Shown: positions 36-49,546 of the stretch, piece after piece
How positions within the stretch are numbered: the stretch's first letter is position 1
Layout: each line of letters begins with the position of its first letter
Source: Candidatus Cloacimonadota bacterium
Lineage (GTDB): Bacteria > Cloacimonadota > Cloacimonadia > Cloacimonadales > Cloacimonadaceae
Direction: 5' to 3'
NCBI GenBank assembly: GCA_020532085.1
Contig: JAJBAV010000006.1
Span: 1-64,000, forward strand
DNA length: 64,000 nt
Program-made: the position numbers and the translations under genes
Notes under the pieces: model-generated
Databases searched by the model: none
Told to the model about the DNA's origin: nothing
Seen by the model: only the letters and a program-made list of their open reading frames with translations

Positions 36-491
36 GATCGTCTCCTTGTCTGTTAGTTTTGTCAAAACCATCAAAACAAAGAGCGGGATCTGGCTCAACC
101 TTTTTCTTCATCTGCCGTTACCTATTTGACACCAACCTTTGAGACGCTACCGTTCGCTCCCAATATCAATACGGTATCAATACGGAATCATTACAGATGA
201 AATCCGTATTGATTCCGTATTGATACCGTATTGATATTGGGAGCGATATTAGTTTCAAAACCTTATGGCGATGAAGAGTGCCGCAGAAGATATCCGGCGC
301 TTCAAACAGCAGCAGCAGGTTACCAAATCGGCTGGAAGAAGAACCAATACTTCAGCTTGGTGGGTGTCCGGAATTCATTCCGTAACACGGGAATCGTCTC
401 AATGCGGAGTTTTATCAGGTGGAAGGAACAGGGCGCTCAAACGTGGGATAAGATGAAGAAGCCTTTTCTCTTTATGCCATTATCCCCATAT
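36..491. other. Intergenic region without a supported gene
   Basis: This 456-bp stretch lies between the start of the truncated gene at 35 and the stop of the radical-SAM gene at 492. It holds the 93-bp palindrome at 154-246. The rest (247-491) shows no ribosome-binding site, no protein-like reading frame that I recognise and no clear terminator. A 63-codon open frame at 265-456 has no family resemblance and is not called. Confidence 0.6.
154..246. repeat. Long palindrome built from 11-bp units, copy 1
   Basis: The two halves are near-perfect reverse complements with arms of about 46 bp: the outer 37 bp match exactly, followed by two mismatches close to the centre. Each arm is made of direct repeats of the form AATACGGNATC, so direct and inverted repeats are nested. 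A second copy with the same outer boundary (CTCCCAATATC) lies at 47477-47574. As RNA or single-stranded DNA it would fold into a long hairpin. Confidence 0.85.
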
Positions 492-44240: not shown

Positions 44241-44542
44241 GATATCTCCACAAGCGGGACGAGCCTTGATCTCTCTTCAGAGATCCGATCGCCCGGCTTT
44301 CACTGGTTTGTTAAATCATTATCCAGCTGAGCGTTGTGAAGGACTATTGTCCGCAGTCACGCGACCAGCAGGAAAATATGGATGATGCAATTTCAGTTCC
44401 ATTAACTCATCTGATTCAGGCTCTGACCGATGTTGTGGAAAATAATACACAGTTGGCAAGAAAAAGGAAATTTAGTTCTTGACATCATAAGTCCGGATGT
44501 TTAAATTGTTTTCATTAGGAGAAACATAAAATAGAGGTGAAC
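44241..44542. other. Divergent promoter region between two surface-protein genes
   Basis: This 302-bp gap separates divergent start codons. It holds the promoter of the OmpA-family gene at 44479-44507 and a small stem-loop in the leader of the nuclease gene (GATCTCT at 44268-44274 pairing with AGAGATC at 44279-44285). No small gene is apparent. Confidence 0.6.
44479..44507 (+). promoter_or_regulatory. Promoter of the OmpA-family gene
   Basis: TTGACA (44479-44484) and TAAATT (44502-44507) are separated by 17 bp, about 35 bp before the ATG at 44543. AGAGGTGA directly upstream is the ribosome-binding site. Confidence 0.7.
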
Positions 44543-47245
44543 ATGAGCAAATTATCAAAAAGTCTTCTTCTTACCCTGTTGTTGCTGGCGCTGCTGCCGG
44601 CAATCCACGCTTTTGAAAGTACCCTTTTAATAGAAGGGGGAGTTGGCATTCCGCTCGACGACATTGAGGGAACCAACGAGATGAAAGGCGCCTGGGCCCT
44701 CACCTGGGATGCCTGGATGATCAAGGACTGGCTTGGCGTGGGTTTCAGCCCCTGGTTCGCCAATGTGGAAGTTCAGGGCGCCGATCCTACCGAATCGTAT
44801 TTTTCCTCGCTGGAAGGGATCAATTTGTATCTGAAACTGCGCCCCACCAAGGCCGGCGCGCTCAATTTTCCCGAGGCGTCTTTCATCAGACGGATATCCC
44901 CGTTCGTGGCGCTCGGCGGTGGCTGGTCCACCCACGGCAGCAAAGATGAAAACGGCGTTGCCAGCAATCCCAGCGAACAGCCTGGATTCAGAGGCCATTT
45001 GACCCTTCCGCACGCCGCGGCCGGCGTTTCCATCCTTTCCAAATGGAACACCACTTTGGATCTGGGCGTTAAATTCGACTACTTCGACGCTGACAGCCTC
45101 GACCTCACCGGCCCCGCCAGCAATTTTCTGGAAAATGACGCGCTGATTACTCCCTACATCGGACTGGGCCTGCATTTCGGAACCCCGATCGCCGTGCCGG
45201 AGCTGCTCTATCAGGGCACCCTGAACGGTTTCAGCACTGTGGTGGGAACTCCTTCCGCGGCTCAGTCCTACAAGTTGCAGGGAAAAAACCTCAAGGGCGA
45301 CATCGATCTGGTGGCTCCCGAAGGTTTTGTGCTTTCCATTGACGGCGGCCAGGTTTGGGCCAAATCGGTGCGCGTGCCGGCGGATTTTGCAGGGGACATC
45401 TGGGTGCGCCTGACCGGCGACAAAGTGGGAACTTATGACGGCAGCATCGGCCATCAGAGCAAAGGCGCGGCCGCGGTCGCCCTGCCCGTAAGCGGTATGG
45501 TGCGTGAACCCATCCTGCCAACTCTGGGCTTGGTATCATCCGGTTTGGGCACGTTCACCACAGAATTGGGAACGCCCTCAGCCGCCCAAAGCTACAAGAT
45601 CAGGGGCAAGGACCTCACCGGCGACATCGTGATCGACGCTCCGGCGGGCTTCGAGTTCTCCCTCGACGGCGGAACTACCTATGCCACATCCATGCGGGTG
45701 CCGGCTGGCTTCGACAGGGATATCCTGGTCCGCATGCCCGGTACCAAGGCCGGCAACTTCAGCGGTAACATCTCTCACGTCAGCCCGGGCGTGCCAAATC
45801 TGACCGTTCCGGTGATGGGCATCGTAACCGCGCCGCAAGTTCCCTCAATCGGTTTGGAGACGGGCGATTTGAGCGCTTTTACCACCGAACTGGGCACTCC
45901 CTCCGCGCCTCAAAGCTACAAGATCAAAGGCAACAACCTCACCGGCGACATCATGATCGACGCGCCGCAAGGATACGAGATTTCCCTCGACGGCGGCAAG
46001 ACCTGGAAGCCTTCCGTCACCGTGCCCGGAGGATTTAATGACAACATCTGGGTGCGCCTGACCGGGGCAGATGCCGGAAACTTTGACGGCAATGTTTCCC
46101 ACGCCAGCCCTGGCGCCGGGACCTTCAACCTGCCTGTGGCGGGAACCGTGATCGAACCTGCTCCGGAAATGCCGGAAATCGTTCTGACATCCGGCAGCCT
46201 GAACGCTTTTTCCACCGATCTGGGAACCCCCTCCGAGCCCCAAAGCTACAAGATCGTGGGCAAAAACCTCACCGGTGACATCGTGATCGACGCTCCCGCG
46301 GGTTACGAATTCTCCCTCGACGGCGGCAAAAACTGGTCCACCTCAATGCGTGTTCCGGCCGGATTCGACAAAGACATCTGGGTGCGCCTCACCGGTGCCA
46401 AAGCAGGAAACTTCAGCGGCAACGTCTCCCACGCCAGTCCTGGCGCAGGAACCTTCAATCTGCCCGTAAGCGGCACCGTTAAGGAAGCCCCTAAACCTGA
46501 AGAACCCGAAGAACCCGAGCAACCCGAAGAACCCGAAGAACCCAAGGACAGCGACGGCGACGGCATTCCCGACGACCGCGACAAAGCTCCTTTCGCTCCG
46601 GAAGACCGCGATGGATTCATGGACGCGGACGGCATTCCGGATCCGGATAACGACGCGGACGGCATCCCGGATGCACTTGACGGCGCCCCCATGGATCCCG
46701 AGGACAAGGATGGATTTGAAGATACCGACGGCATCCCCGATCCGGACAACGACGCGGACGGCATCCCGGACGTGAGCGATCTGGCCCCCGGCACAGATCA
46801 GACCGTGGCCCAGGGCATCAACACCAAGGAAACCTACAACGATTTCGAGGATACCGACGGTGTTCCGGACGAACTTCCGGGCAACCCTCTGCTGGACCAG
46901 TTGGAGGAAGACCTGCTGAAGCACATGGTGCACTTCGACACCAACCTCTACACCATTCGCGCCAGTGACAAACCCTTCCTGGACCGCGTGGCCGAAGCCC
47001 TCAAACAGCTCCCCGAGGTGATGATCGAGATCCAGGGACACACGGATTCCACTGGTAATGACAAGATCAACGAACCGCTATCCTACAACCGCGCCAAGGT
47101 GGTCAAAGACTACCTCGTGGCCAGAGGCGTGGACGCGGAACAGATCGAAAGCAAGGGCTACGGCTCCAAGGTCCCCGTCGCCACCAACGACACCGTGGCC
47201 GGACGCCAGGAAAATCGCCGCGCCCAAATGGTGCTCATCAAATAA
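44543..47245 (+). CDS. OmpA-family outer-membrane protein with four Ig-like repeats and Ca-binding linker
   Basis: The protein has 900 residues. ATG at 44543 is used because AGAGGTGA precedes it; an in-frame GTG two codons earlier lies inside that site. Signal peptide (SLLLTLLLLALLPAIHA), a barrel-like region (about 25-215), then four repeats of about 95-100 residues starting near 225, 331, 439 and 549. Each has the pattern GTPSxxQSYK, NLTGDI, SLDGG, VRLTG and SGxV. A Pro/Glu linker and thrombospondin type 3-like Asp-rich repeats (DSDGDGIPDD) follow. A C-terminal OmpA domain (VHFDTNLYTIR, IQGHTDSTGND, NRAKVVKDYL) should bind peptidoglycan. It probably links the outer surface to the cell wall. 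Confidence 0.92.
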   Translation: MSKLSKSLLLTLLLLALLPAIHAFESTLLIEGGVGIPLDDIEGTNEMKGAWALTWDAWMIKDWLGVGFSPWFANVEVQGADPTESYFSSLEGINLYLKLRPTKAGALNFPEASFIRRISPFVALGGGWSTHGSKDENGVASNPSEQPGFRGHLTLPHAAAGVSILSKWNTTLDLGVKFDYFDADSLDLTGPASNFLENDALITPYIGLGLHFGTPIAVPELLYQGTLNGFSTVVGTPSAAQSYKLQGKNLKGDIDLVAPEGFVLSIDGGQVWAKSVRVPADFAGDIWVRLTGDKVGTYDGSIGHQSKGAAAVALPVSGMVREPILPTLGLVSSGLGTFTTELGTPSAAQSYKIRGKDLTGDIVIDAPAGFEFSLDGGTTYATSMRVPAGFDRDILVRMPGTKAGNFSGNISHVSPGVPNLTVPVMGIVTAPQVPSIGLETGDLSAFTTELGTPSAPQSYKIKGNNLTGDIMIDAPQGYEISLDGGKTWKPSVTVPGGFNDNIWVRLTGADAGNFDGNVSHASPGAGTFNLPVAGTVIEPAPEMPEIVLTSGSLNAFSTDLGTPSEPQSYKIVGKNLTGDIVIDAPAGYEFSLDGGKNWSTSMRVPAGFDKDIWVRLTGAKAGNFSGNVSHASPGAGTFNLPVSGTVKEAPKPEEPEEPEQPEEPEEPKDSDGDGIPDDRDKAPFAPEDRDGFMDADGIPDPDNDADGIPDALDGAPMDPEDKDGFEDTDGIPDPDNDADGIPDVSDLAPGTDQTVAQGINTKETYNDFEDTDGVPDELPGNPLLDQLEEDLLKHMVHFDTNLYTIRASDKPFLDRVAEALKQLPEVMIEIQGHTDSTGNDKINEPLSYNRAKVVKDYLVARGVDAEQIESKGYGSKVPVATNDTVAGRQENRRAQMVLIK

Positions 47246-47274: not shown

Positions 47275-47303
47275 GGGGCCCGCATCACGCGGGCCCCTTT
47301 TTT
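47275..47303 (+). terminator. Intrinsic terminator of the OmpA-family gene
   Basis: GGGGCCCGC (47275-47283) pairs perfectly with GCGGGCCCC (47289-47297) around a 5-nt loop and is followed by six T residues. Confidence 0.92.
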
Positions 47304-47476: not shown

Positions 47477-47574
47477 CTCCCAATATCAATACGGTATCAA
47501 TACGGAATCAATACGGATTTCATCCGTATTGATTCCGTATTGATTCCGTATTGATACCGTATTGATATTGGGAG
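47477..47574. repeat. Long palindrome built from 11-bp units, copy 2
   Basis: The outer ends CTCCCAATATC and GATATTGGGAG are exact complements, and the arms contain AATACGG-type 11-bp units. The left arm has three units and the right arm four, so the two arms are out of register by one unit near the centre. Copy 1 lies at 154-246. Confidence 0.85.
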
Positions 47575-47805
47575 GGAGCCGGGCAAAATGGGATAAATCG
47601 CAAATGGTTTCAGCCTGTGGTTGCGGCCAGTTTCGGCCTGTCCTGGCTGTTCGGCGCGGGGTGCCCCAACAACTGGAAAGCAGTTGGCAGGGTTGAAATC
47701 CGGAGTACTGCGGACGGGGCTGGCGCAGGTTTTCATAAAAAGGCTGACGCGCGCATCCGCACGCGCTCGTCCGGGAAAAAATCCGGGAAAGTTGCAAAGG
47801 TCTGC

Positions 47806-48361: not shown

Positions 48362-49546
48362 ATGGCAAAAGAAAAATTCGTACGTAACAAGCCGCATGTC
48401 AATGTTGGTACGATCGGTCATATTGACCACGGCAAGACGACGCTCACCGCAGCGATCACTTCGTATTTGAGCAAAAAGGGCGGCGCTTCGTTCCGTTCCT
48501 TTGACAGCATCGACAACGCTCCGGAAGAAAAAGCCCGCGGCATAACCATCGCCACAGCCCACGTTGAATACGAAACCGACAAGCGCCACTACGCGCACGT
48601 GGATTGCCCCGGCCATGCCGACTACATCAAGAACATGATCACCGGTGCCGCGCAAATGGACGGAGCCATCCTCGTCGTGAGCGCCGCAGACGGCCCCATG
48701 CCCCAGACCCGTGAGCACATCCTGCTCGCCCGTCAGGTGGGCGTTCCCGCCATCGTGGTTTTCATGAACAAGTGCGACCTGGTTGACGATCCCGAATTGC
48801 TCGACCTGGTGGAAATGGAAGTTCGTGAGCTTCTGGAAAAATATGAATTCCCCGGCAGCGACCTTCCCGTGATCCGCGGTTCCGCCTTGAAAGCGCTGAA
48901 TGGCGATGCCGAAGGCGAAGCCCAGATCCAGGAACTCATGGACGCCGTGGACAGCTACATTCCGCAGCCTGACCGCGCCACCGACAAGCCCTTCCTGCTT
49001 CCCGTCGAAGACGTGTTCTCGATTCCGGGACGCGGCACCGTGGCCACCGGCCGCGTGGAACGTGGCGCCATCAAAGTTGGCGAAAAAGTAGAGCGCGTGG
49101 GCATCCGCGAGACCGTGGAAACCACCTGCACCGGCGTGGAAATGTTCCGCAAACTTCTGGACGAAGCCCAGGCAGGCGACAACATCGGCGTGCTGCTGCG
49201 CGGCTTTGCCAAGACCGACGTGGAGCGCGGCATGGTGCTGGCCAAACCCAAATCCATCACCCCGCACACCAAGTTCTCTGGCCAAACCTACGTCCTCACC
49301 GCTGATGAAGGCGGACGCCAGAAGCCCTTCCGCACCGGCTACCGTCCCCAGTTCTATTTCCGCACCACCGACGTGACCGGAACCCTGACCCTGCCGGAAG
49401 GCGTACTGATGGTCATGCCCGGCGACAACGTGCAGATCACCGGTGAGCTCATCACCCCGATCGCCATGGAGCAGGGACTGCGCTTCGCCATCCGCGAAGG
49501 CGGCCGCACCATCGGCAGCGGCGTGGTTGGCGATATCATCGAATAA
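48362..49546 (+). CDS. tuf: Elongation factor Tu
   Basis: The protein has 394 residues, the normal length. GTP-binding motifs are [10 protein letters not shown] (P-loop), [12 protein letters not shown] (G3), NKCDLVD (G4) and GSALKAL (G5). Domain 2 and 3 sequences ([27 protein letters not shown]) are typical. It delivers aminoacyl-tRNA to the ribosome. AGGAGG lies close upstream of the ATG. Placement right after four tRNA genes reproduces the thrU-tyrU-glyT-thrT-tufB arrangement known from Escherichia coli. Confidence 0.98.

Follow-up and report, generated by a model that had tools for sequence, protein, structure and literature searches.

Dispersed repeats in bacterial genomes are usually explained by transposition followed by decay. 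MITEs, for example ERIC and the Correia elements, are short non-coding elements that carry inverted repeats and are dispersed through genomes, and IS1397 is reportedly an insertion sequence (IS) that inserts into REPs. In the accessible parts of the literature, REPs and REPINs are described as palindromic, intergenic sequences that are present in tens of copies, form persistent sequence populations and act as IS targets (PMC3733652, PMC8049555, PMC1525189), and an example of an IS with REPs as preferred sites is ISPpu9 (PMC1525189). An 11-bp repeat layout is known from the distal direct repeats of pMV158 RepB, which the accessible part of the source describes as three 11-bp tandem repeats of one helical turn each (PMC9943647).

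We analyzed a window of 64,000 nucleotides from a Candidatus Cloacimonadota genome (G000). A preliminary description had reported two copies of a palindrome made of 11-bp units, the second of which, at 47477-47574, was said to share the outer boundary of copy 1 and to have unequal arms, with three units on the left and four on the right. Coordinates, shuffles and folding confirmed this second copy, with its three left and four right units enclosed by one shared outer stem (Table 1), and copy 1 was found to have the same outer boundary. A unit pattern with one mismatch allowed matched the window 12 times (five times in copy 1 and seven times at 47477-47574) against 0.75 matches expected, a number reached in 0 of 100 shuffles, and the palindromic stretch folded as DNA with an MFE of -51.4 kcal/mol (z = -14.9). 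The shuffles and the folding z-score together exclude chance for this palindrome. Its identity as an intrinsic terminator was rejected, the scan giving only 47275-47297 and 47747-47766, as was that of an Rfam RNA, the palindrome having only sub-threshold matches to miRNA precursors and none above the gathering score.

Table 1. Features of the tRNA-tuf locus and the related palindrome copy (positions in the window)
Feature	Position	Strand	Remark
Copy 1, same palindrome family	154..246	.	3+3 units
OmpA-family gene	44537-47245		upstream of palindrome
Terminator-like hairpin	47275..47297	+	3' of OmpA-family gene; context, outside palindrome
Left outer stem GCTCCCAA	47476..47483	+	conserved across copies
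Left arm, three 11-bp units (TATCAATACGG, TATCAATACGG, AATCAATACGG)	47484-47494, 47495-47505, 47506-47516 (47484..47516)	+	
Centre ATTTCAT	47517..47523	.	in 3+3 register: 3-nt loop between AT/AT
Right arm, four 11-bp units	47524-47534, 47535-47545, 47546-47556, 47557-47567 (47524..47567)	-	inner unit twice
Right outer stem TTGGGAG	47568..47574	+	
tRNA-Thr	from 47928		in the run of four tRNA genes preceding tuf
tuf	48362-49546		after four tRNA genes

The palindrome belongs to a dispersed family. An assembly-wide search returned dozens of near-identical sites, with 121 forward and 138 reverse matches to a two-unit pattern and none to the reversed control. Counted by the centre pattern, there are 60 copies in G000, 76 in G006, 57 in G010, 41 in G012, 37 in G008 and one in G009, and none in 7 of the 13 genomes of the genus. 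An exact scan of a species-genome collection found 95 stretches, all in three Candidatus Cloacimonadota metagenome assemblies. By a home-made gene caller, on which the orientation and intergenic counts rest, none of 50 G000 copies examined lay inside a called gene; the neighbouring genes were convergent in 13, tandem in 12 and divergent in 9, and 16 copies did not have called genes on both sides. Viral or plasmid spread was rejected, with no exact two-unit match of this AATACGG type in viral contigs and no match in plasmids or phages. A two-unit match to another unit type, TTAATCAAG, was seen in six viral contigs (L358-L363). The accessible parts of the open-access literature gave no account of 11-bp-unit palindromes or similar repeats in Cloacimonadota.

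High copy number and extragenic position are shared with REPs and REPINs. Unlike REPs, which measure 20-40 bp, the Cloacimonadota palindrome is about 90 bp long with arms of 42-45 nt; the arms are made of 11-bp direct repeats, no unpaired terminal GTAG or CGTC tag was seen, a RAYT partner is only a candidate (adjacent in G006, G008 and G010), and orthologous sites carry a species-specific spelling. The element is short, dispersed, non-coding and made of inverted repeats like a MITE, but is a stem throughout instead of two ends and a core. Its likeness to the pMV158 RepB repeats is one of layout only; those repeats lie at a plasmid origin, at a single locus, and have no palindromic arms.

The earlier reading had placed the palindrome between a strong terminator and the promoters of the translation operon, as a possible local DNA-structure device such as a supercoiling barrier that would serve this operon. 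The position between the terminator-like hairpin and the tRNA-tuf cluster was borne out and is what speaks for a barrier. For the promoters, a consensus scan from the palindrome to the tRNAs gave none at its threshold, and TTGACA hexamers at ~47806 and ~47886, which recur in congeners, were seen by eye. However, some 60 copies exist genome-wide, the mixed orientations of the genes next to the 50 copies show no tie to such operons, and, among the seven genomes in which the region upstream of tuf was read, the palindrome is absent from G002, G003 and G006. A structural role tied to the tuf locus was thus not supported, and we give it hardly any credence. The same seven genomes include three with an AATACGG-type palindrome upstream of tuf (G000, G010 and G012) and one, G001, with a palindrome of a different 11-bp unit, the TTAATCAAG type; one intergenic region upstream of the tRNA cluster therefore holds the AATACGG type or the TTAATCAAG type in different genomes.

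Unit number was counted in 145 copies (50 in G000, 52 in G010, 37 in G012 and 6 in G008), four of which ran off the end of their stretch and were left out. In the 141 fully readable copies the arrangement is 3+3 in 138, the exceptions being the 3+4 copy at 47477-47574, a 3+12 copy (L082) and a 3+2 copy in G008 (L146); a further 3+2 copy, L356, lies outside this count. In L082 (1277-1448) the right arm continues for 12 units up to the contig end, which may reflect either an extensive gain of units or a loop in the assembly. The extra right-arm unit at 47477-47574 repeats the inner unit, CCGTATTGATT, which could have been duplicated by slippage or misaligned copying. Because the tuf-locus copies in G010 and G012 are both 3+3, the fourth unit was most simply gained in the G000 lineage, and it is probably a rare derived duplication. 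Unit-wise gain and loss, proposed in the preliminary description, finds support in the duplicated inner unit and in the 3+12 and 3+2 copies, but the expected variability between arms and copies is rare. The fourth unit might also be an error of metagenome assembly, the genome being split into 98 contigs with several ending at these palindromes. Yet this copy is internal to a 93.8-kb contig and its duplicated inner-type unit stays in register, and we consider such an error quite improbable.

Many sites are shared between species. For 31 of the 50 G000 copies, a match to a flanking gene adjoins a palindrome in G010 or G012, giving 42 pairs in total at a matching cut of 65% identity, some of which may be paralogues. 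In 19 of the 38 usable pairs (those with a target distance <1500 bp) the two gene-palindrome distances differed by no more than 30 bp, whereas 2000 shuffles averaged 5.0 such pairs and never exceeded 11. Some pairs have distances far apart (-114 and -1103 in L080/L209; -347 and -1564 in L053/L171). Flanks could be aligned up to the palindrome edge in L056/L180, here on both sides, L075/L177 and L087/L235. The L056 site carries a palindrome also in G008 and none in G004, G007, G009 and G011, and by eye these four unoccupied versions show no clear empty target beside the occupied ones.

The spelling of the copies follows the genome and not the site. Core identity is 0.990 within G000, 0.974 within G010 and 0.983 within G012, and 0.885 between G000 and G010 and 0.934 between G000 and G012. 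Orthologous pairs, averaged from the listed values, have a mean identity of 0.884 (22 pairs, G010) and 0.936 (19 pairs, G012), close to the between-genome means; orthologues therefore resemble each other no more than other pairs do. The middle unit is TATCAATACGG in 96/96 arms of G000, GATAAATACGG in 83/102 arms of G010 and AATAAATACGG in 54/68 arms of G012. We take the shared sites together with the uniform spelling in each genome as concerted evolution in place. The main alternative, which keeps some weight because the flanks of most pairs align poorly, is repeated independent insertion at identical preferred spots.

Our main reading, to which we assign a probability of about 0.5, is that the palindromes form an old, vertically inherited, REP-like family of dispersed non-coding elements that is kept uniform through in-place copying and whose units change by slippage. 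Most insertions would be old and inherited vertically, and each copy would be overwritten at its own site with sequence from ectopic sister copies, either by gene conversion or by replication template switching, with arm-to-arm template switching maintaining the match between arms. All 34 copies of G012 have perfectly matching arms, though some hold non-consensus units. In G000, 13 of 48 copies are fully matched; the remaining 35 have at least one arm mismatch, in most of them in an inner unit, indicating that arm correction is incomplete. Offset 6 of the G000 outer stem, one of 30 offsets tested, covaries between the arms (39/49 paired, shuffled 31.9, p 0.004), and offset 9 showed no covariation (16/49 paired versus 22.6 in shuffles). 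Dozens of copies thus seem to keep their shared sites as replacement of their sequence proceeds across the genome, so that the concerted evolution of short repeats in bacteria could be tested directly.

Conversion could be initiated by the hairpin nuclease SbcCD. SbcD exceeded the model cut-off in 0 of 13 genomes of the genus and in 8 of 14 control genomes; SbcC likewise exceeded it in 0 of 13, a weak test with only 1 of 14 controls over the cut-off. Gene conversion started by SbcCD is weakened by these results. Strong sub-cut-off SbcC matches were found in 7 of 49 genomes of the family, including G020, which has many TTAATCAAG palindromes, showing that the absence of SbcC is not required for palindromes. 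That a genus lacking recognizable SbcCD has near-perfect palindromes some 90 bp long bears on the tolerance of long palindromes.

Several unrelated unit sequences occur in the family, among them AATACGG, TTAATCAAG and TGTGGCTATGA, with a common 11-bp period. Palindromes of the TTAATCAAG type are common in G001, G004 and G020 and also present in G003 and G008. Across 1.15 Mb surveyed in 13 genomes, 14 palindromes had arms of at least 20 nt, and the best internal period was 11 in every one of them; the surveyed stretches of G016 (C10), G020 (C94 and C29) and G001 (C1) had been picked around already known palindromes, and seven palindromes were met without a prior pattern (G016 L339, three in G019, two in G018 and G020 L380). 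New unit types in this survey were GATGNNAGGGT (G016), AGCAGATCAAG (G019), TGTGGCTATGA (G018) and TCCTGTCATCC (G020). The surveyed stretches of G011, G002, G009, G021, G015, G022, G032 and G029 contained no palindrome with arms of at least 20 nt. Near Y1 genes, additional 11-bp types were found in G013, G052 and G043, together with several palindromes without the period. A universal 11-bp period was rejected: among 24 arms, with two loci counted twice, the best period was 11 in 19 and another in five (L244, L251, L259, L267, L133b), and four of the 19 were no better than shuffles (the left arm of L250, L139, L145 and L374). It is possible, though we hold this only tentatively, that one Cloacimonadota family harbors a palindrome class defined by an exact 11-bp period in both arms rather than by sequence, in which lineages swap the unit genome-wide and keep sites and architecture; a dedicated machine that reads the palindromes and rewrites them in place would explain such a class.

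An 11-bp unit would span about one helical turn, and the fixed period suggests a protein that reads one helix face turn by turn; its recurrence across unrelated units points to a putative reader. The palindromes might accordingly be arrays of binding sites for a putative protein, such as a nucleoid organizer or an HUH initiator-like protein, with selection instead of copying keeping the sites alike as its specificity changes. Besides the recurrent period, this reading could draw on pMV158 RepB, which, in the accessible part of the source, binds three 11-bp direct repeats with its domains lying along the same side of the DNA helix (PMC9943647). It could also draw on the flanks, whose consensus is GCTCCC/GGGAGC plus CCC/GGG: the CCC and GGG lie ~16 nt beyond the outer stem on the two sides and are conserved in G000, the outward-left profiles of G010 and G012 have the same CCC, and no pairing covariation was found for them in G000, as expected for protein contact. 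However, the copy-specific variants in the 34 G012 copies occur symmetrically in the two arms, and no intermediate with a change in one arm was seen, which argues for arm-to-arm copying, and the type is missing from 7 of 13 genomes of the genus and hence dispensable. We regard selected binding arrays as an unlikely explanation of the family.

Active movement of the palindromes as miniature elements by a Y1 (RAYT-type) transposase, as for REPs and REPINs, was attractive at first. PF01797 genes were found in 28 of 41 genomes searched, with seven matches in G000, and a close homologue adjoins an 11-bp-unit palindrome in G006, G008 and G010, at distances of ~23, 78 and 257 bp, respectively. These three adjacent genes may represent one ancestral locus, however, and the neighbor in G008 is of the TTAATCAAG type. 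Homologues of this gene have short repeats of their own around them, of the classical REP-like form (GAGTCCC..GGGAC..TTTAGATAG), G000 and G012 have palindromes without a close copy of the gene (best matches 47% and 35% identical), and the flank consensus contains no GTAG or CGTC tag. Because of the homologues' own repeats and the palindromes of G000 and G012 without a close homologue, we do not classify the family among REPs driven by a RAYT, and we doubt that such a transposase moves it. Repeats of the form GAGTCCC-NNN-GGGACG..TTTAGATAG and variants surround the Y1 homologues L241, L244, L245, L246, L247, L248 and L249. The Y1 homologues and the short GAGTCCC repeats likely constitute a separate RAYT/REP system.

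The palindromes are also used by insertion sequences. An IS3-like end, TGTCTCGTCCTAAAAAAGTTGACA, occurs at seven sites in the genome (L059, L062, L064, L073, L086, L092 and L356) and in every case lies directly against a palindrome's outer stem, which explains several of the contig breaks. Two of the seven matches are partial, and five lie at contig ends. The start of a reading frame beside TGTCTCGTCCTAAAAAAGTTGACA resembles IS3-family OrfA by eye, and 23 residues of this frame had no match in Pfam. As in the cases of IS insertion into REPs, the IS uses a palindrome family as its preferred site; unlike in those cases, its end abuts the outer stem, and the IS is known here by its end and the start of its ORF. 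A second IS end, ACCAACCTTTGAGACGCTACC, presumably IS256-like and located at 1-148 of the window and 1-129 of L074, abuts or cuts the palindrome at copy 1 and in L074.
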